Assembly (NCBI GenBank): GCA_015233135.1
Contig: JADFYH010000005.1
Location: 1 to 64,000 of the forward strand
Origin: Deltaproteobacteria bacterium
GTDB lineage: Bacteria; UBA10199; JADFYH01
DNA: 64,000 nucleotides
Direction: 5' to 3'
The position numbers were made by a program, and so were the translations under genes. The notes beneath the pieces are model-generated. The model did no database searches and was not told the origin of the DNA. It worked only from the letters and a program-made list of their open reading frames with translations. How positions within the stretch are numbered: the stretch's first letter is position 1; each line of letters opens with the position of its first letter. Positions 6,175-60,138 of the stretch are shown in pieces.

Positions 6175-7341
6175 ATGCCTCACCAACGCGCCAGACATGT
6201 CCTTCCTCTCCTCTTGAAACGCCTTAAATTGTGGCCTGTGCTGGGAATTCTGGGCGCTCGCCAGGTGGGTAAAAGCACCCTGTTGCGTGACCAGCTTGCA
6301 ACCCATATTGAGGCCCTCTATCAAACCATGGACAACAAAGAGTTGCGCAGTCAGGCTGAAAAACGGCCCAATTATTTTCTGGATAGGGAAGTGGAAAAAA
6401 CGCTCATTATTGACGAAGTCCAAAAAGCCCCCGATCTGTTTGATGCGATCAAGGTACGGGTGGATGAAAAACGCAGACCGGGTCGTTTTCTGTTGTCAGG
6501 ATCCACCGAGTTTTCGCAGAAAACGGGCATTCGGGAATCGCTGACGGGACGCATTGGCATCTTCAGGCTTTACCCGCTTACCCTGGCAGAAAGTGAAGAA
6601 AAAAAGTTTTCGAACCCCTGGGTGAGTGGGCATTTTTCAAGCCCTGCTGTTCCGTTTAAAAATCTTCAGCGAAGAATGCATCAGGGAGGAATGCCCGGGA
6701 TTTGTTTTTTAAGAAGTGAAGAAGAAAGGCGTGCTGCTTTTGATTCGTGGCTTGAAACCACCTGTTATCGGGATATTCAGCAAATTCGGGGGGCGAAAAT
6801 CAGCGGGGATCTGGCGATGGAAATTTTGTCCATCCTTCCCCAGCTTGAGGAACCCACGCTGGCTGAGATTTCGCTGGCCTTAAGAGTGGATTCCAGAAAA
6901 ATAAAAAATCATCTGGATGCACTGGAGAGTGTTTTTGTGCTGAACCGACTGAACGCCCACCGACTCGGAACAGGCAAGGCACAGTATTATCTTTTCGATT
7001 CGGGTCTCTGTTATCATTTGGGGGGAAGCCCTCGTCTGTTGCTCAAAACCTGGCTCTTCAATGAATGTCTTGCCCAGTTTGAATATAGCGGAGTGAAGGT
7101 GAAGGTTTGCCATTATCGATCCTCCCGAAAATCCAGCATCGATTGGGTGCTGGAACGGGAAAGGCAAAGGAGCGCCTATATTTTAACTGAAGAACAGGCT
7201 CCGGGAACCTATGTGTTTCGTGCTGCAGAGGCCTTTCTCAAAAAAGCCCCCCAGACAAAGGTGTTTGTGCTGGCCCCGGTGGATAAACCTTATCCGGAAA
7301 CAAAAAATATCCAGGTGCTTCCCTATGGAGGCCTGGGGTAA
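6175..7341 (+). CDS. AAA_14/DUF4143 orphan ATPase
   Basis: A 388-residue protein with Walker A GARQVGKSTLL near residue 27, a Walker-B-like TLIIDEVQKAPD and the sensor-like FLLSGSTEF typical of AAA_14. A DUF4143 C-terminal half has winged-helix and restriction-nuclease-like parts. Such ATPases are common, horizontally mobile genes of unknown role in bacteria and archaea. The start is fixed by the Walker A spacing; no SD is present, which fits the leaderless promoter just upstream. The gene is bordered by the DUF559 element on the left and REP/MITE elements on the right, so it lies in an accessory patch. A broken relative lies at 34121-34815. Confidence 0.82.
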   Translation: MPHQRARHVLPLLLKRLKLWPVLGILGARQVGKSTLLRDQLATHIEALYQTMDNKELRSQAEKRPNYFLDREVEKTLIIDEVQKAPDLFDAIKVRVDEKRRPGRFLLSGSTEFSQKTGIRESLTGRIGIFRLYPLTLAESEEKKFSNPWVSGHFSSPAVPFKNLQRRMHQGGMPGICFLRSEEERRAAFDSWLETTCYRDIQQIRGAKISGDLAMEILSILPQLEEPTLAEISLALRVDSRKIKNHLDALESVFVLNRLNAHRLGTGKAQYYLFDSGLCYHLGGSPRLLLKTWLFNECLAQFEYSGVKVKVCHYRSSRKSSIDWVLERERQRSAYILTEEQAPGTYVFRAAEAFLKKAPQTKVFVLAPVDKPYPETKNIQVLPYGGLG

Positions 7342-50528: not shown

Positions 50529-51629
50529 ATGTATATTCATGAGAGAAAGCAGTGGCCCCACTTCAGTTGGGATAGTCAAAGGTTAGGCGCTCTTCTTGCG
50601 GATGTGCGACATTGGCAGGGGCGTTTACTTGGAAGGATGGAAGCTCTAGGGTTTTCGCTACGTGAAGAGGCGACACTCAAGGCCCTCACGCAAGAGGTAG
50701 TTAAAACCAGTCAAATTGAAGGTGAAAGTTTGAATACTGAGCAAGTGCGTTCTTCGATTGCCAGGCGCTTGGGTATTAAGATTGTGGCCCCCAGACCAGT
50801 CGATCGTTCTGTCGAAGGCATTGTTGAAGTTTTACTCGATGCTACCCGTCACTTTGAAAGTCCCCTGACAAAAAAAAGATTGTGTGCCTGGCATGCAGCG
50901 CTCTTTCCCAGCGGAAGAAGCGGGTTGCGAGAAATTAGTATGGGAGCCTGGAGGGGAAAATCCAGTGGTCCCATGCAAGTGGTTTCTGGCCCCTACGGAC
51001 ACGAGAAAGTGCACTATGAAGCACCCTCTTATAATCGCCTCGCGAAAGAAATGAAAGATTTCCTCCAATGGTTCAATGCTGAAAACGAAACAGATCTCCT
51101 CCTCAAATCGGCACTTGCTCATTTTTGGTTTGTTACACTTCATCCTTTTGAAGATGGCAATGGACGAATTGCTAGAGCCCTTGCCGATCTACTGCTTGCA
51201 AAATCGGAGGGAAGCCCACAACGCTTCTACAGCCTATCTTCCCAGATCGAAAGCGAACGCGAAGATTACTACGATATTCTGGAAAAATGCCAGAAGGGAT
51301 CCCTCGATATCTCACCTTGGATGGAATGGTTTTTGAACTGTTTAAAACGAGCGATTTTAAAATCTGAAGAGACGCTTGAAGATGTTTTGGGTAAATCAAA
51401 ATTTTGGAAAATACATGCTGAAGAATTATTCAATGAACGGCAGCGAGCAATCCTCAATCGTCTCTTAGATGGCTTTCAAGGAAATCTCACTTCCTCCAAA
51501 TGGGCCAAGCTAGCCAAGTGTTCTCAAGACACGGCCTTGAGAGATCTGAATGATTTGGTGGAACGTAAAATTTTGAAAAAAAATAATGCGGGAGGACGCA
51601 GTACTCATTATCGGCTTATCCTCAGTTAG
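50529..51629 (+). CDS. Fic/DOC AMP-transferase, class II
   Basis: A 366-residue protein from ATG 50529, matching the DUF4172 N-terminus ([14 protein letters not shown]); a GTG at 50505 is possible. The N-terminal inhibitory helix has TSQIEGE (S/T-xxx-E-G/N). The Fic core is [19 protein letters not shown], complete with catalytic His, followed by a winged-helix domain (~310-366). Family members transfer AMP to hydroxyl side chains of target proteins and auto-inhibit. The stop overlaps the convergent cysA stop by 4 bp. Target unknown; it borders the sulfate locus. Confidence 0.9.
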
Positions 51630-52693
51630 CCCATTCCCTCCAAAAAAACCTTCACTGAGCGCGGCTTCACAAACACTTTTTCCCCTTTTTGAAACAGATC
51701 TTTTGAAAATTCATTCTTGTTCATTTCCACTTCAATAAAGGCACCGGTGTCGTGGCGTTTGAGTTCGATGCGCACGCGAGGGCCGACGGCGATGATGCTT
51801 TCCACGGTGGCACTCAGGGCGTTTTCGTCGGTTTTTTCGCGAGTGATTTCCATTTCGTGAGGGCGCACGTAAGCGACGGCGTTTTTGGCTTCCTGGATGG
51901 CGTTGTTGGGAATCTCCAGGGTCATGCCTTCCAAAACCGCTTTGCCTTCCTGAATTCGGCCATGAAATAAATTCACGTCGCCCAGAAAGTCATATACAAA
52001 AGGCGTTGCCGGGTGGTCATAGACTTCCTCCGGAGAACCCACCTGTTCAATCTTGCTTTGGTGCATGATGACGACACGATCGGCCACTTCGAGGGCCTCT
52101 TCCTGATCGTGGGTCACAAAAATGCTGGTAATTTTGACTTCATCGTGCAGGCGACGCAGCCAGCGCCTCAGATCTTTTCGAACTTTCGCGTCGAGGGCAC
52201 CGAAGGGTTCATCCAATAATAAAACAGAAGGCTCTACCGCCAAGGCACGGGCCAAGGCGATACGCTGGCGTTGTCCGCCGGAAAGTTGCGCGGGATAACG
52301 ATGGGCCAGGCCTTCGAGTTGCACCATTTTTAAAAGATTCATGACGCGTTCTTGGATTTCACTTTTAGAAGGGCGATTTTTTCTGGGGCGCACTTGCAGA
52401 CCAAAGGCAATGTTGTTGAAGACGCTCATGTGTTTGAAGAGGGCATAATGCTGAAACACAAAGCCCACGCGTCTTTGCCGGGCATCGCGGTAAGTGCTGT
52501 CTTCGTCATCAATCATTACCATGCCGCTACTGGGAACCTCGAGGCCGGCGATGAGTCTCAGTAAGGTGGTTTTTCCGGATCCCGAGGGACCAATTAAGGC
52601 AACGAGTTCCCCCGGATTCACTTTTAAATTGATGTCGTGAAGTGCGGTGAAGTTGCCGAAGTGTTTGTAGAGATGGACTATATCAATACTCAT
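51626..52693 (-). CDS. cysA: Sulfate/thiosulfate ABC transporter ATPase
   Basis: A 355-residue ABC ATPase: Walker [10 protein letters not shown], signature [15 protein letters not shown], Walker [14 protein letters not shown]-loop THDQEEA, and a C-terminal TOBE-like regulatory domain ([11 protein letters not shown]). The order cysT-cysW-cysA and the sbp gene nearby mark it as the CysA subunit. It powers sulfate or thiosulfate import. A REP pair separates it from cysW. Confidence 0.92.
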
Positions 52694-52697
52694 GTGA

Positions 52698-52813
52698 AAT
52701 CCTTAAAGCTCTCTCTCCCTTGAGGGGAGAGAGTTGGAGAGAGGGTGATAATGGATTCAAATTGATTTCCAGGTATTCCCCCTCTCCCTGACCCTCTCCC
52801 TCCAGGGGAGAGG
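52698..52813. repeat. REP pair between cysW and cysA
   Basis: Opposed CTCTCCC/GGGAGAG units at 52701-52745 and 52775-52812 with linker GGATTCAAATTGA, matching the family linker. Intra-operon position: it may attenuate or stabilise the mRNA. Confidence 0.65.
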
Positions 52814-52816
52814 GAA

Positions 52817-53692
52817 TTATTTTTTTACAGAAACCTTCACTTCCTTTTCCAAAAGTGTTTTTAAAATTAATGTCACCATCGCCAGCAAGGCCAAAACAGA
52901 CGCAACGGCAAAAGCGGCGGCGAATTCGTATTCGTTGTAGAGAATTTCAACATGCAAGGGAATGGTGTTGGTCTGCCCACGGATATGGCCGGAGACCACG
53001 GAGACGGCGCCGAATTCTCCCATCGCCCGCGCGTTGCAGAGGATGACTCCGTAAAGTAAGCCCCATTTGATATTGGGCAAGGTGATTCTGAAAAAAGTCT
53101 GAAGACCGGAAGCTCCCAATACTCGGGCGGCCTCTTCCTCTTCCTTGCCTTGGGCCTGCATCAGCGGGATGAGCTCACGCGCAACAAAAGGGAAGGTGAT
53201 GAAAAGGGTGGCGAGTACAATGCCGGGAAGTGCAAACATGATTTTGATATTATGCTCGCTCAGCCAGGCTCCAAACCAACCCTGCAAACCAAACAAAAGC
53301 ACGAAGATCATGCCGGCAATCACAGGGGATATGGCAAAAGGCAGATCAATCAAGGTGAGCAGGATGTTCTTTCCACGAAATTCGAATTTTGCCAGACACC
53401 AGGCAGCGATGATTCCAAAGATAGTGTTTACCGACACGGCAAGTCCAGCCGTGAGGAGTGTGAGCTTGATGGCCGAAAGGGCATCGGGCTGAATCAAGGC
53501 CGCCCAATAAGCCTCAAGTCCCTTTTGCAAGGCCTCATAAAAAACACTTACCAAGGGGACAATAAGAAAAAGAAGCAGAAAAGAGAGGGCCAGCAAAATT
53601 AACAGCAGCCTGAACCAGAGCGGTTCTTTTTCGGCAATGGAGCGAATTTTAGAGGCGCGAACCACTTCCCAATAATGCGGATTTTCACTCAT
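52817..53692 (-). CDS. cysW: Sulfate ABC transporter permease CysW
   Basis: A 291-residue permease with six predicted TM segments and the EAA loop ([32 protein letters not shown]). Signature stretches such as [19 protein letters not shown] and [22 protein letters not shown] are typical of CysW. Start overlaps cysT by 4 bp. Inner-membrane channel half. Confidence 0.92.
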
Positions 53693-54516
53693 GCCGATCT
53701 CCGTGCCTGCCAGGATTGCAGCAGGTTAATGCCAAGCAACAAGGCAAAAGAAGCGACCAGCATCACTAAGGCAATGGCTGTGGCTCCTGCATAATCGAAT
53801 TGTTCGAGTTTGGTCATGATGAGCAAAGGGGTAATTTCTGTTTTTAAGGGCATGTTTCCCGAGATGAAGACCACCGACCCGTATTCTCCCAATGCTCTTG
53901 CAAAGGCCAGGGCAAAGCCGGTGAGCAGGGCGGGAAGAAGATGGGGGAAGATTACAGCGGTGAAGGTCTTGAGTCGACTGGCCCCCAGGCTGGAGGCAGC
54001 TTCTTCCATTTCGGGATCCAAATCTTGAATCACGGGTTGCAGGGTTCGAACGACAAAAGGGAGTCCAATAAAAGTGAGAGCCACCATAATTCCCAAGGGA
54101 GTATAGGCCACTTTGATTCCCCATTTTTCGAGAAAATGCCCTATCCATCCATGAGAAGAATACAAGTTGGTGAGGGCAATTCCTGCCACAGCGGTAGGCA
54201 GGGCAAAAGGCAAATCCACCAAGGCATCAAACACACGCTTTCCGGGAAAGGGATAACGCACCAAAACCCAGGCGACCAGCAAACCCAGGACGGCATTGAT
54301 ACTGGCGGCAATAAAGGAGGCGCCAAAGGTGAGTTTATAAGAAGCGACCACTCGGGCGCTGGTGACGGTTTGAATGAAATCAGACCCACCGAGATGGGCG
54401 GTTTTGATGAAAAGCGAAGAAAGCGGAATCAGCACAATGAGGCTTAGGTATAAAACCGTGAGCCCCAGGCTGAGACGAAAACCAGGTAAGATGGATCGGG
54501 TTTGGATGCGTTTCAT
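53689..54516 (-). CDS. cysT: Sulfate ABC transporter permease CysT
   Basis: A 275-residue permease with six TM segments, [19 protein letters not shown] loop [21 protein letters not shown], and [23 protein letters not shown], as in CysT/CysU. It pairs with CysW. First gene of the minus-strand cysTWA unit, divergent from the porin-sbp unit. Minus-strand promoter not convincing; TTATAT abuts the ATG. Confidence 0.92.
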
Positions 54517-54546: not shown

Positions 54547-54632
54547 AGTCCCCTCTCCCTTGAGGGGAGAGGGTTAGGGAGAGGGTGAAAGATCAAAGGC
54601 TGCCACGTCGCTTTGCTCCTCGCAATGACAAA
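54547..54632. repeat. REP unit plus fragment of a GCGAGGAGC-type repeat
   Basis: A 40-bp CTCTCCC/GGGAGAG palindrome unit (54547-54586) is followed by CACGTCGCTTTGCTCCTCGC (54605-54624), the reverse complement of the dispersed ATTGCGAGGAGC repeat seen at 24251. Confidence 0.6.
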
Positions 54633-54654: not shown

Positions 54655-54682
54655 TTGACAAAAATCTAACTTTTCCTTTACC
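54655..54682 (+). promoter_or_regulatory. Promoter of the cysteine leader/porin-sbp unit
   Basis: -35 TTGACA at 54655-54660 and a weak -10 TTTACC at 54677 (16-bp spacer). Transcription would start near 54689, only a few nt before the leader-peptide ATG at 54694, giving a leaderless or near-leaderless uORF. Confidence 0.45.
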
Positions 54683-54693
54683 CCTGTAAAAGC

Positions 54694-54789
54694 ATGTCGG
54701 GTCATTTTACACAAACTCTCCTCTCTAAGCCGTACAACACCTGTTGTTGCCGTTGCTGCATGTGCATGTGTATGTGCATCTGTATCTAG
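54694..54789 (+). CDS. Cysteine-rich leader peptide (attenuator uORF)
   Basis: 31 codons, ATG 54694 to TAG 54787-54789. The peptide begins MSGHFTQTLLSKPYNT and ends CCCRCCMCMCMCICI: nine Cys in the last 15 residues. That is the hallmark of a transcription-attenuation leader sensing charged tRNA-Cys. It precedes alternative hairpins and a terminator, then genes for a porin, sulfate-binding protein, serine acetyltransferase and cysteine synthase. No conventional SD, consistent with near-leaderless translation. It is too short for usual gene callers. Confidence 0.85.
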   Translation: MSGHFTQTLLSKPYNTCCCRCCMCMCMCICI

Positions 54790-54906
54790 CCGGTTGCTTA
54801 GAGAAGCTCAGATTTTTTGTAAAAGTCTCAATTAAAATCCAGTCTCAATGATAAAGAAGCTCCCCTCTAAGAAATCGGCTCCCCGGTCACGGTGGAGCTT
54901 TTTTTT
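54722..54906 (+). promoter_or_regulatory. Cysteine-responsive transcription attenuator
   Basis: Segment 1 (54722-54730, TCTCTAAGC) lies in the uORF just before the Cys codons. Segment 2 (54796-54804, GCTTAGAGA) pairs with it over 9 bp. Segment 3 (54865-54871, CTCTAAG) can instead pair with segment 2 over 7 bp. Segment 3 lies within the terminator hairpin 54853-54863/54894-54904 (AAAGAAGCTCC with GGAGCTTTTTT, then T-run). A ribosome stalled at the first Cys codon would cover segment 1, allow 2:3 pairing and prevent termination; normal translation would favour termination. Sequence shows the pairing; the mechanism is inferred. Confidence 0.75.
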
Positions 54907-54969
54907 ATTCTCCACCCTCTTGTTTAAACATCTACATAAACGAAATCTAAAATAAGAAAGAACAAATAT

Positions 54970-56373
54970 ATGAAAAAAATCAAATGGCTTTTAGCGGACC
55001 TCATCCTGGGCACAAGTTTAATTACCCTTCCCCAAACAGGCTTTGCAAAAAGCAAAAAAACGGTGACAGAAAATACGAGTTCCCTTCAAGAACGCATCAA
55101 CGAACTGGAACAAAATCAAAAAATTCTCCAGCGCAAATGGGAAATCGAGCAAGAAAAAGCAGAACAAAAAGACAAACCCAAGGAGAGCCTCAATGCCGGC
55201 TTCAATAGCAAAGAAGGCTTTTATCTTAAAAGTAGTGAGGGAGGAACCGCCATTCGTTTGAGAGGATTACTTCAGGCCGATGGGCGTTTTTTTCTTAACG
55301 ATGAAGGAGACAAGCTTGTAAATCAGTTTATTGGCCGACGCCTTCGTCCTATTGTGGAAGGCGATATTGGAAAATATTTTGGTTTCAAGTTTACGCCCGA
55401 TTTTGGCGGGGGAACCGCAAGCATACAAGATGCCTATGCAGACATCAAACCCTTCAAGGCCTTAAGTTTTCGTGTGGGTAAATTTACAGCGCCTCTGGGT
55501 TTAGAAAGATGGCAATCTTCTGCCAATTTACTTTCTGTAGAACTTGGGCTTCCTACCAATCTCGTTCCCAATCGGGATCTGGGAGCCCTGGTATTTGGGA
55601 CTATTGCGGACGGCGTATTTTCGTATTCTGCCGGGGTGTTTAATGGAACAATCGATGGGGGTTCCAACGACACCGATGTCAGCGACGGAAAAGATGTGGT
55701 CGCTCGCCTCTTCGCTCAACCCTTCAAAAACACAAAACTCAAAGCGCTAGAAAAACTTGGAGTGGGCGTGGCTGGAAGCTGGGGGAGCCAGTTTGGATCT
55801 GCCACTACGACAAACCTTGCTTCGCAAAAAAGCAGTGGCCAAAATACTTTCTTTTCTTTTAGGTCGGATGGCACCGCTCCCAATACTGTGTTTGCAGATG
55901 GCGACCGTTTGAGAATTTCACCCCAAGGCTACTATTATGTGGGCCCCTTTGGATTGTTTGGCGAATATGTCCTTTCTTCTCAAAAGGTAAATCTGGCGGG
56001 CGCAAAAACGGACATCGCAAACAAGGCCTGGCAAGTGGCTGCTTCTTATATCCTCACGGGTGAGGAAAGTTCTTTTTCCGGAATCAAAGTCAAAAACCCC
56101 ATCAATTTCAAAAAAGGAAACTGGGGTGCTGTGGAATTGGGTGCCCGTTATAATGATCTGAAGATTGATGATGCAGCATTTCCCGTCTTTGCCGACCCTG
56201 CCAAATCTGCTTCCCATGCAAAAGCCTGGGGTGTAGTGGCCAATTGGTATTTGACCAACAATTATAAATTTACGGTAAGCTATGATCATACAAATTTTAC
56301 AGGTGGAGCAAGTGGTGGTGCGGATAGAGCGCCGGAGCATGCTTTATTTACAAGATTGCAGGTGGCTTATTAA
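54970..56373 (+). CDS. OprO/OprP-family anion porin
   Basis: A 467-residue outer-membrane protein: signal peptide ending TGFAKS, a coiled-coil segment (~34-70, LQERINELEQNQKILQRKWEIEQEKAEQ), then a beta-barrel of the phosphate-selective porin O/P family (ADGRFFLNDEGD, RVGKFTAPLGLERWQS, PNRDLGALVFG), ending in an aromatic residue (LQVAY). Family members pass phosphate or pyrophosphate. Location behind a cysteine attenuator and before sbp suggests passage of sulfate or another sulfur anion here. Confidence 0.85.
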   Translation: MKKIKWLLADLILGTSLITLPQTGFAKSKKTVTENTSSLQERINELEQNQKILQRKWEIEQEKAEQKDKPKESLNAGFNSKEGFYLKSSEGGTAIRLRGLLQADGRFFLNDEGDKLVNQFIGRRLRPIVEGDIGKYFGFKFTPDFGGGTASIQDAYADIKPFKALSFRVGKFTAPLGLERWQSSANLLSVELGLPTNLVPNRDLGALVFGTIADGVFSYSAGVFNGTIDGGSNDTDVSDGKDVVARLFAQPFKNTKLKALEKLGVGVAGSWGSQFGSATTTNLASQKSSGQNTFFSFRSDGTAPNTVFADGDRLRISPQGYYYVGPFGLFGEYVLSSQKVNLAGAKTDIANKAWQVAASYILTGEESSFSGIKVKNPINFKKGNWGAVELGARYNDLKIDDAAFPVFADPAKSASHAKAWGVVANWYLTNNYKFTVSYDHTNFTGGASGGADRAPEHALFTRLQVAY

Positions 56374-56412: not shown

Positions 56413-57423
56413 ATGAAAAACAAAAAACTAAAACTCATCACCCTCAGCCTCTTAGCCTTGCTAGGATTCAGCTCAACAAAACTCCAAGCGCAAACCAACT
56501 TCCTGAACGTCTCCTATGATCCCACCCGAGAACTCTATCAAGACTACAACCAAGCCTTCGGGAAATATTGGAAAGACAAAACCAAGCAAGACATTAAATT
56601 CAGCCAATCTCACGGAGGCTCCGGGAAACAGGCAAGATCTGTCATCGATGGTCTGGAAGCCGATGTCGTGACCTTAGCTCTGGCTTACGACATTGATGCC
56701 ATCGCCGAAAAAGCAAAACTACTTCCCGCCGATTGGCAAAAAAAATTACCTAATAATAGTTCGCCTTATACTTCCACCATCGTTTTTTTAGTGCGCAAAG
56801 GAAACCCCAAACAAATTAAAGATTGGAATGACCTCGTAAAACCTGGCATTGCTGTCGTCACCCCGAATCCCAAAACTTCAGGGGGCGCGCGCTGGAACTA
56901 TTTGGCCGCTTGGGCTTATGCCTTGAAGCAACCGGGTGGAGATGAAACCAAGGCCAAGGAATTTGCTTCGGCACTTTACAAAAATGTGCCCGTGTTAGAC
57001 TCCGGTGCACGCGGTGCCACCACTACTTTTGTGGAGCGCGGCATCGGCGATGTGCTTCTGGCCTGGGAAAATGAAGCGCTGCTGGCGGTAAAGGAATTGG
57101 GAAAAGATCGATTTGAAATCGTCTATCCGAGCATCAGTATCCTGGCTGAACCTCCCGTGGCTGTCGTCGAGAAGAATGCCAGCAAGCATGGCACACTCGA
57201 TTTAGCCAAGGCCTATCTGGAATATCTCTATACCAACGAAGGCCAGGAGATCGCGGCAAAACATTACTACCGACCTCGCCTGGCCGCCGTGGCGGCTCAA
57301 TATACAGCTCAATATCCCAAACTCAATTTGGTAACGATTGAGGATACTTTTGGAGGTTGGCAAAAGGCCCAGAAAATCCATTTTGCCGATGGCGGCAGCT
57401 TTGATCAAATTTATGGGAAGTAA
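56413..57423 (+). CDS. sbp: Sulfate-binding periplasmic protein
   Basis: A 336-residue protein with signal peptide ([17 protein letters not shown]). [56 protein letters not shown] and [16 protein letters not shown] are hallmarks of Sbp/CysP. It delivers sulfate to CysTWA, encoded on the other strand 2 kb away. It is 39 bp after the porin gene, in the attenuated unit. The 57424-57582 gap before cysE has no clear gene. Confidence 0.93.
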
Positions 57424-57582
57424 TTTTGTCATGAGAAAAAATAAGCAGGGAGATCAAAAACGACTCCAACTCCAGTCGCCCGCGGTTTTTCACGGAGGAG
57501 GAGCTGGATTTATTTTTTGAAATTACAAAACAATTAACAAAACTTTACTTTTGTGAGGGTTGTGGCATTAGTTAAAAAGATT

Positions 57583-58443
57583 ATGGATCTCATCAGCAGC
57601 CTTAATCAGCTCAGTTCAGAATTCACACCGGCCTTACTCCCCAAGGCCGATCGGGTTTTTTTCTGTCTTGAATCACTTTGGTTTATACTTTTTCCGGATC
57701 ATCGTTTTTCGAGTAAATATTTTTTGAAGGATGCCGCCAAAGAGAAAGCCTACTTGGTTTTAAGAGAATGCCGGCAGGAATTGGAAAAACAAGTGAGCCT
57801 GGCTTTTCAGGCTCAAAAGAAATCCGAGATGGAAGTGAAAACTCTGGTTGAAGATTTTTTTAATACCCTCCCCTCCGTAAAGAAAAAACTTTTGGACGAT
57901 GCCCAGGCGGCCCATGAAAGAGACCCCGCGGCAAACAGCATGGATGAAATCATTTTGTGTTATCCGGGTTTTTTGGCGATTCTCACCTATCGCCTCGCGC
58001 ACGAACTCTCCCTCCGCAAGGTTCCGTTGATTCCTCGCATGATGAGTGAATATGCCCACAGCCTCACCGGATGCGATATTCACCCCGAGGCCAAAATTGG
58101 CGAGAAATTTTTCATCGATCATGCCACAGGGACAGTGATTGGACAGACCTCGGTGATTGGAAATGGAGTCACTCTTTTTCAGGGAGTCACCCTGGGTGCC
58201 ATGGCACTCAATCCGCCGGGTATTCATAAAAGGCATCCCACCCTTGAAGACGATGTGACCGTCTATGCCAATGCCAGCATCCTGGGCGGAGAGACGGTGA
58301 TTGGCAAAGGCTCTATCATCGGAAGTTTTTGCTGGATCATGAGTTCCATTCCCAAAAAATCCAAAATCAGAATGGCCAAGCCCCATCTCATTCAGAGCTT
58401 TAGTGGAAAAACGAAAGAGTGTATTCCGAATTGGGAAATTTGA
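57583..58443 (+). CDS. cysE: Serine O-acetyltransferase
   Basis: A 286-residue protein from ATG 57583 (GTG 57553 or 57562 also possible; no strong SD for any). N-terminal helical domain, then the left-handed beta-helix of hexapeptide repeats: SEYAHSLTGCDIHPEAKIGEKFFIDHATGTVIGQTSVIGNGVTLFQGVTLGAMA (in parts), with catalytic His and Asp in FIDHATG. It makes O-acetylserine from serine and acetyl-CoA, the acceptor for sulfide in cysteine synthesis. Followed after 1 bp by fic. Confidence 0.9.
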   Translation: MDLISSLNQLSSEFTPALLPKADRVFFCLESLWFILFPDHRFSSKYFLKDAAKEKAYLVLRECRQELEKQVSLAFQAQKKSEMEVKTLVEDFFNTLPSVKKKLLDDAQAAHERDPAANSMDEIILCYPGFLAILTYRLAHELSLRKVPLIPRMMSEYAHSLTGCDIHPEAKIGEKFFIDHATGTVIGQTSVIGNGVTLFQGVTLGAMALNPPGIHKRHPTLEDDVTVYANASILGGETVIGKGSIIGSFCWIMSSIPKKSKIRMAKPHLIQSFSGKTKECIPNWEI

Positions 58444-58444
58444 A

Positions 58445-59194
58445 ATGCATTCACTACTCAAACAAATTGACGAGAAACAGCGTCAGCTAGCTACTTTTCA
58501 GCCCTTCACTCCATCGCTTCAAAAAAATATTCTGGACTACGCTCGTATTGAACTCACCTATAGTTCGAATGCCATTGAAGGAAACACCTTAAGTCTGCAA
58601 GAGACCGCCCTTGTCGTAGAAAAGGGAATTACGGTGGCAGGTAAAACAATTACTGAACACCTGGAAGCAGTGAATCATGCGAGTGCTTTCGATTATATTT
58701 GCACTTTGCAAAATCGGAATAGAAAAGATTTAACTGAAGAAACCCTATTGAAAATTCATGCCCATGTCTTAAAAGGAATAGGCGATTCCAATGCAGGAAT
58801 TTATCGTCAGGTTCCCGTGCGTATTTCCGGCTCTCGGGTAGTGATGCCCAATCCCCTAAAAGTTCCTTCTTTAATGCAAGATTTTGTGACATGGCTTCAG
58901 GGCGATCTCTCTCAACAGGCAGCAACGATTGCAGCGGAGGCGCATTTTAAATTAGTCAGCATTCATCCTTTTGTAGATGGCAATGGCCGGACAGCACGTC
59001 TCTTAATGAATTTATTGCTGATGCAAGCTGGATATCCTCCCGCTTCGATTAAACCCGAAAGTCGATTGGAATATATTCAGGCGCTTGAAAAAGCCCAACT
59101 CGGAAACGGTATGCAAGATTATTACCTGGTGATTTATAAGGCCCTGATTCAATCTCAGGATGAACTCTTAAAACTATTGGAGGCAAAATCATGA
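58445..59194 (+). CDS. Fic-domain AMP-transferase inside the cysteine operon
   Basis: A 249-residue protein from ATG 58445, 1 bp after the cysE stop. Inhibitory motif [10 protein letters not shown] (S-xxx-E-G), N-terminal helices, and Fic core [20 protein letters not shown] with the catalytic His. The end overlaps the cysK start (ATGA). Translation therefore links cysE, fic and cysK. Fic proteins usually AMPylate other proteins; a link to the cysteine synthase complex is suggestive but unproven. Confidence 0.9.
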
Positions 59195-60138
59195 AAATCT
59201 ATAACGACAATTCCCTCTCCATCGGTTGCACGCCCTTGGTGAAAATCAATCGCATCAACAATACCCAGGCCACGATCCTCGCTAAAATTGAAGGGCGCAA
59301 TCCGGCTTATTCGGTTAAATGCCGTATTGGCGCGGCCATGATTTGGGATGCCGAGAAAAAAGGCCTGCTCACCAAAGGGAAACGCATCATCGAACCCACC
59401 AGTGGTAATACCGGAATTGCCCTCGCTTTTGTCGCGGCTTCCCGCGGCTATCCGATTACGCTGACGATGCCTGAGACCATGAGTCATGAGCGACGCAAGC
59501 TTCTTAAAATCTTTGGAGCTGAACTGATTCTCACCGAAGGCGCCAAAGGCATGCCCGGTGCGATTGCAAAGGCCAAAGAGATTTATGAAAGTGATAAAGA
59601 AAAATATCTGCTGATGCAGCAATTCGAAAATCCCGCCAACCCGCAAATTCACGAAGAAACCACGGGGCCTGAGATTTGGGAAGATACCGAGGGTAAAATT
59701 GATATCCTCATTTCAGGGGTAGGTACCGGTGGAACAATTACAGGTGTCAGTCGCCATATTAAAAATAAACAGAATAAGAAAATTCTTTCGGTAGCCATTG
59801 AGCCCGAAGAAAGCCCGGTGATCACACAAACTCTTCAAGGCCAGGAAGTAAAACCCGGTCCGCACAAAATTCAGGGCATCGGTGCCGGCTTTGTGCCGAA
59901 AAATCTGGATTTGAGCATGGTTGATCGTGTGGAGCGCGTCAATAGCCTTGATGCCATGGCGATGGCAAAACGCCTGGCAGAAGAAGAAGGGATTATTTCC
60001 GGCATCTCCTGTGGTGCAGCGATGATTGGGGCACTTCGATTGGCCAATGAAAACCCCGGTAAAAATATCGTCGTCATTCTGCCCGATTCCGGTGAACGTT
60101 ATCTCTCGAGTGCCTTGTTTGAAGGGGTGACGGCATAA
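59191..60138 (+). CDS. cysK: Cysteine synthase (O-acetylserine sulfhydrylase)
   Basis: A 315-residue PLP enzyme: PLP lysine in [49 protein letters not shown], and [15 protein letters not shown]. It adds sulfide to O-acetylserine to make cysteine. The order cysE-fic-cysK is unusual. CysK versus CysM cannot be separated for certain; length and motifs favour CysK. Start overlaps fic by 4 bp. Confidence 0.92.

Follow-up and report, generated by a model that had tools for sequence, protein, structure and literature searches.

A putative cysteine-responsive attenuator ahead of sulfate uptake and cysteine synthesis genes in an uncultured bacterial class

The sulfate and cysteine genes and their leader

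The window analysed here, a stretch of 64,000 nucleotides (positions 1 to 64,000 of the forward strand of contig JADFYH010000005.1, assembly GCA_015233135.1, Deltaproteobacteria bacterium, GTDB lineage UBA10199), contains a group of sulfate and cysteine genes preceded by a short upstream open reading frame (uORF) rich in Cys codons. The original prediction had placed porin, sbp, cysE, fic and cysK downstream of this leader, and HMM searches bore out all five assignments.

54970..56373, plus strand: porin (Porin_O_P), first gene of the presumed controlled operon (Pfam PF07396, E 8.9e-29)
56413..57423, plus strand: sbp, sulfate-binding protein (NCBIfam NF008022, E 1.1e-161)
57553..58443, plus strand: cysE-like serine acetyltransferase, ATG start at 57586 possible (TIGR01172, E 3.2e-47, below cut-off; SATase_N in Pfam)
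58403..59194, plus strand: fic, overlapping cysE and cysK (Pfam PF02661, E 4.7e-24)
59191..60138, plus strand: cysK, cysteine synthase A (TIGR01139, above cut-off)
51626..54516, minus strand: cysT, cysW and cysA, sulfate transporter genes (HMM), divergent and outside the control of the leader

The plus-strand genes lie close together: sbp begins 40 nt after porin, and cysE about 130-160 nt after sbp. Their functions, sulfate uptake and cysteine synthesis, agree with the codon enriched in the leader, which counts in favour of a cysteine attenuator. The fic gene lies between cysE and cysK in the window; in a relative, G005, the cysE-cysK pair is adjacent, without fic.

The promoter and coding elements of the leader are as follows.

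54655..54660, plus strand: -35 element TTGACA, exact match
54678..54684, plus strand: putative -10 element, TTACCC (spacer 17) or TACCCC (spacer 18), placed by spacing alone; a poor TATAAT match and the weakest element
54694..54789, plus strand: leader-peptide uORF MSGHFTQTLLSKPYNTCCCRCCMCMCMCICI, 31 codons, probably near-leaderless, with homologues in six genomes of the class
54742..54783, plus strand: nine Cys codons, putative control codons, read from the sequence

The C-terminal part of the peptide is CCCRCCMCMCMCICI, and nine of its last 15 residues are Cys, as originally described; short ATG-ORFs in 60 dinucleotide-shuffled windows reached at most 5 Cys per 15 residues. The second half of the Cys run (54742-54786) is a 6-nt simple repeat, ATGTGY, perhaps expanded by slippage, and the count of nine is thus inflated compared with the relatives (3-8 Cys). 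The last Cys codon (54781-54783) ends 5 nt ahead of GCCG, a spacing common to all seven leaders found in the class, and the TAG stop codon, starting at 54787, stands directly ahead of this motif in the window. A search of NCBIfam with five leader peptides gave no match, and a search of Rfam with the leader gave nothing above threshold (best E 0.24, chance level).

In six of the seven leaders an exact TTGACA ends 30-33 nt ahead of the uORF start codon, where it would occur by chance at 0.4% per random position; the seventh carries TTGACG (5/6 match) at 40 nt from the ATG. If a spacer of 17-18 nt is assumed, the ATG lies 7-10 nt past the predicted -10 element in six leaders and 17 nt past it in G005. 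With the ATG so near the -10 element, the 5' end of the mRNA would coincide with the AUG or lie a few nucleotides from it; in the window, a transcription start at about 54690-54691 is expected from the promoter spacing. The suggestion that the uORF may be near-leaderless is consistent with this spacing, on which it leans since the predicted -10 element is poor. Two brief intergenic sequences, palindromic or repeat-like and each single in the window, lie just upstream of the promoter (54550-54579 and 54609-54629); sequences of this kind are often dispersed in genomes.

Alternative helices and the terminator

Four RNA elements follow from the leader sequence.

54722..54730, plus strand: segment 1, TCTCTAAGC (anti-antiterminator strand), pairing with 54796-54804
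54788..54808, plus strand: segment 2 (54796-54804 as first proposed), partner of segment 1 or segment 3
54858..54880, plus strand: segment 3 (54865-54871 as first proposed), antiterminator partner, overlapping the terminator 5' arm at 54877-54880
54877..54906, plus strand: intrinsic terminator GGCUCCCCGGUCACGGUGGAGCU with U-run, 9-bp stem at 54877-54899 (GGCTCCCCG/CGG-T-GGAGCT)

The three segments were found where they had been predicted, and segment 2 can pair with segment 1 or with segment 3, the two pairings being mutually exclusive. Helix 1:2 has 9 bp without a mismatch (-13.9 kcal/mol), to which sequence upstream of segment 1 adds weaker pairing. Helix 2:3 also exists, but the 7 bp initially assigned to it were wrong: it joins 54788-54808 with 54858-54880 at -25.4 kcal/mol, and its core (54788-54803:54865-54880) is paired at 15 of 16 positions. 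The 7-bp version would stop at 54871, leaving the terminator untouched, and could have no antiterminator role, whereas the larger helix reaches 54880, inside the terminator stem, and takes the four basal terminator pairs that are nearest the U-run. An antiterminator role is thereby possible, and the attenuator model works with this larger helix. The distance from segment 1 to the first Cys codon (start 54742) is 11 nt instead of the 12 originally given, the codon lying just past segment 1 as proposed.

The terminator with a T-run to 54906 ahead of the porin was likewise confirmed, with a hairpin of -14.9 kcal/mol; none of 200 shuffles of the region reached -14. A stock terminator scanner made no call for 54877-54906, probably because the stem has a bulge. 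The outer 5' arm AAGCTCC (54857-54863) can substitute for the inner terminator arm. The predicted fold of the entire leader lies 3 standard deviations below that of shuffles, and both mutually exclusive helices are present in the window above shuffled controls.

The effect of a ribosome was modelled by blocking the RNA from -18 to +13 relative to the A-site codon, in equilibrium folding and not kinetics. In the window, a ribosome on Cys codons 1, 2 and 3 gave antiterminator pair probabilities of 0.88, 0.86 and 0.69, with helix 1:2 at 0, 0 and 0.17. On Cys codon 4 the antiterminator was at 0.22, and with no ribosome, or with the ribosome on Cys codons 5-9 or the stop codon, it did not exceed 0.05. 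Helix 1:2 was at 0.91-0.96 in these non-stalled states, but at 0.37 with the ribosome at the stop codon, and the terminator 3' arm was 0.98-1.0 paired in those inspected. A stall at codon 1 lowered the pairing of the terminator bases beside the U-run to 0.22-0.31. The switch is thus confined mainly to the first Cys codons, which makes the CCC triplet the likely sensor, and the later MCMCMCICI run would contribute little according to the folding model. A point against the model is that, of the nine terminator pairs, the stalled state disrupts no more than about four.

Homologous leaders in the class

The genome set comprised 385 genomes, 46 of the class (the source and 45 others) and 339 outside it; the source genome has no close relative there. 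Relatives were sought via Sbp homologues in the class, whose surroundings were scanned for Cys-rich short ORFs. Such ORFs were found at sulfate genes in G010, G037, G031 and G005; an HMM built from five leaders added the leader of G021 (E 1.9, weak, obvious on inspection), and that of G042 was recognised by eye. The original prediction was to fall if relatives showed no conservation of the Cys codons, and it withstood this check, six class members from several families carrying homologous Cys-rich leaders at sulfate genes. An HMM of all seven sequences, trained on the very sequences it recovers, gave E <=3e-10 for the seven and E <=5e-13 for each of the six relatives. Across the 385 genomes it found nothing else better than E 0.0037, and no leader among the 339 outside the class; its best E in 40 named genomes with close Sbp proteins was 0.004. 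Class relatives with Sbp and no visible leader were L027, L028, L029, L031, L032 and L034.

Several further candidates were rejected. A subset of the weak HMM matches beyond the seven (E 0.0016 or worse) was inspected and no leader was accepted: the match in L156 is antisense within a recQ-like gene, and in L201, L203, L206, L209, L210, L213, L214 and L215 no short Cys leader could be recognised ahead of sulfur genes. Three named genomes (L073, L087, L120) have other short Cys-rich ORFs close to sbp, which seem to be other genes read out of frame. A DNA pattern combining Cys codons with CCGGC...GCCGG missed known cases, and the 76 genomes matching it appear to be chance matches.

In five of the six relatives the gene right after the leader belongs to a sulfate operon (porin, sbp or yezD).

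G010 (L025) and G042 (L024): leader-yezD(DUF2292)-porin-sbp
G031: leader-sbp-cysTWA-porin
G037: leader-sbp, then the contig end
G005 (L035): leader-porin-sbp-cys transporter genes, with cysE-cysK just upstream
G021: leader at the contig end, just ahead of a yezD-like start

In G005 the start of the porin frame seems shifted (L035:7470-7530, minus strand), as an assembly error or in reality, and the listed ORFs miss this gene. The G042 leader (L024:6336-6434) keeps the helices and the promoter with just three Cys codons, and is possibly a weakened sensor.

All seven leaders have Cys codons (3-9), the motif TGT-N5-GCCG[G/A] and a TTGACA-type -35 element. The GCCG[G/A] opens segment 2; the triplet that is the TAG stop in the window is a sense codon in the relatives, where Pro-Ala/Thr codons follow. 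Helix 1:2b, formed between uORF nt 13-19 and a stretch lying 10-11 nt beyond segment 2a, is paired in 34 of 35 cells at these fixed positions in five leaders, and in 10-29 when slid. Helix 2a:3 is GCCGGCG:CGCCGGC in some leaders and GCCGACG:CGTCGGC in others. Over both helices, pairing holds in 97% of cells, 5 of 14 pairs changed on both sides, and the covariation score was matched by none of 500 shuffles, in a set of five leaders with an alignment built from excised segments and segment 3 placed by complementarity; even the full seven sequences are a small number for covariation. The window and L035 were excluded from this count because segment 1 sits elsewhere in them. Taken alone, the 2:3 helices of L030 and L033 are unexceptional for their composition, 31 of 300 shuffles in L030 and 24 of 300 in L033 being as good. 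The covariation expected of the hairpins is present as compensatory changes in the alternative helices.

These observations bear on two other explanations. The leader might be an open low-complexity (ATGTGY)n stretch that happens to lie beside an ordinary terminator, as the 6-nt repeat in the second half of the Cys run could suggest, but conservation refutes chance: six genomes from several families have homologues of the leader at the same operon, and these show compensatory changes, which makes this reading extremely improbable. The Cys-rich peptide might also sense by itself, either as a metal-binding nascent chain similar to CutF/CruR (copper) or as an arrest peptide: its Cys residues are dense, a stretch MC-x-x-P-A/T is conserved in six leaders, and copper-responsive uORFs exist (PMC9973294, PMC9426467). 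However, the genes downstream are sulfate and cysteine genes, with no recognised metal or copper gene among them, no export signal is evident in the leader peptide, and the peptides diverge strongly across the leaders while the helices are retained. Moreover, the window stop codon precedes the Pro-Ala codons and GCCGG is still kept past it, so that the conserved stretch works as RNA. Sensing by the peptide is therefore very unlikely.

Proposed mechanism, known systems and regulatory output

The conserved leaders, the compensatory changes and the switch in constraint folding all support the original reading of the locus as a cysteine attenuator. We regard the leader, with a probability of about 0.84 on sequence and folding evidence, as a ribosome-mediated attenuator that responds to Cys-tRNA and governs sulfate import and cysteine synthesis; it would very probably turn the cluster on at low cysteine. 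The mechanism is well supported in silico, and the cysteine response is predicted. The transcript would begin at or a few nucleotides before the uORF AUG. When Cys-tRNA is ample, the ribosome would proceed to the stop codon at 54787; segment 2 would then be held by segment 1 or lie under the ribosome, leaving segment 3 to the terminator, and transcription would end at about 54906. When Cys-tRNA is scarce, the ribosome would stall on the first Cys codons (54742-54750) and mask segment 1, freeing segment 2 for pairing with segment 3. This would remove the terminator pairs beside the U-run, and RNA polymerase would enter porin-sbp-cysE-fic-cysK, so that falling cysteine would lead to more sulfate uptake and cysteine synthesis.

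The enterobacterial trp, his and leu attenuators comprise control codons, segments pairing as 1:2 and 2:3, and a terminator. The window leader shares these parts and their logic, with a Cys-codon run, exclusive and conserved helices and a terminator competing with 2:3, but it would sense cysteine and its leader ORF is probably near-leaderless; in most relatives the uORF continues through segment 2, and the stop-codon geometry differs. To our knowledge, classical attenuation in Gram-negatives was long without a known case in which cysteine is sensed.

Cys-run leader peptides were first predicted in Mycobacterium, Propionibacterium and Bifidobacterium, without terminators (PMC1262725). Leaderless poly-Cys uORFs of M. 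smegmatis are cysteine-responsive attenuators (Canestrari et al. 2020, as presented in PMC9031893 and PMC13236596), and the later papers on mycobacterial leaders describe translational attenuation (PMC9031893, PMC13236596). Compared by description, the window leader and the mycobacterial uORFs are alike in the Cys run of a short uORF before sulfur or cysteine genes, in an AUG placed at, or close to, the 5' end of the mRNA (a prediction for the window leader) and in the proposed sensing of cysteine through ribosome speed. In the mycobacterial leaders no terminator hairpins were found (Seliverstov 2005), whereas the window leader has an intrinsic terminator and the 1:2/2:3 alternatives; it comes from a Gram-negative-type class unrelated to mycobacteria, and its operon includes an outer-membrane porin.

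The uORFC-8-2 motif of Rhodobacterales, a tandem-Cys uORF with an intrinsic terminator upstream of cysS, has been predicted to perform ribosome-mediated transcription attenuation (PMC8632094). The claim of novelty made at first was thus too strong, a terminator-type attenuator with Cys codons having already been predicted. By description the two resemble each other in a Cys-codon uORF followed by an intrinsic terminator; uORFC-8-2 has two tandem Cys codons, targets a tRNA synthetase gene (cysS) and is confined to alpha-proteobacteria, whereas the leaders described here have 3-9 Cys codons, target sulfate import and cysteine synthesis and belong to another class. The kind is therefore known, while the target operon, the lineage and a poly-Cys leader with the full 1:2/2:3/terminator layout and compensatory support appear new, as far as the literature found shows. 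A conserved, helix-supported case in an uncultured class suggests that Cys-codon sensing arose more than once, or is older or wider than the mycobacterial case, and the near-leaderless uORF, parallel to that of mycobacteria, can serve to test whether leaderless initiation is a preferred sensor design.

Judged from its hairpins, the output is best read as transcriptional in the window and in L030, which alone have a recognisable intrinsic terminator; none was found in the other five relatives. The equilibrium fold of L030 is 2:3 with or without a stalled ribosome, and a kinetic argument is thus needed there. Segments that follow the uORF of L025 are complementary to the ribosome-binding site of yezD (CCTTTCGTA...GCCGGCC with GGCCGGCATACGAAAGG) at -25.4 kcal/mol; similar pairing occurs in L024 (-18.2 kcal/mol) and L035 (-16.9 kcal/mol), and no convincing intrinsic terminator is found in these three. 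This complementarity suggests translational output there, and would fit a mycobacteria-like mechanism in which a stall at the Cys codons makes the first gene's ribosome-binding site accessible. As an alternative to transcriptional attenuation this is unlikely: the terminator of the window is strong, the ribosome-binding region of its porin shows very little pairing (-6.5 kcal/mol), and constraint folding revealed no clear SD opening on stall in L025, L035, L024, L164 and L033. Translational output could be true of relatives though not of the window. Tentatively, and at somewhat less than even odds, the class may possess near-leaderless cysteine attenuators throughout, with a retained sensing module (Cys codons and segments 1-3) and an output, terminator or masking of the ribosome-binding site, that depends on lineage.

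The first gene after the leader in L025 (2910-3092) and L024 (about 6616-6795) encodes a small DUF2292 (YezD-like) protein (Pfam E about 1e-18), by which this uncharacterised family is tied to sulfate uptake under a Cys leader.
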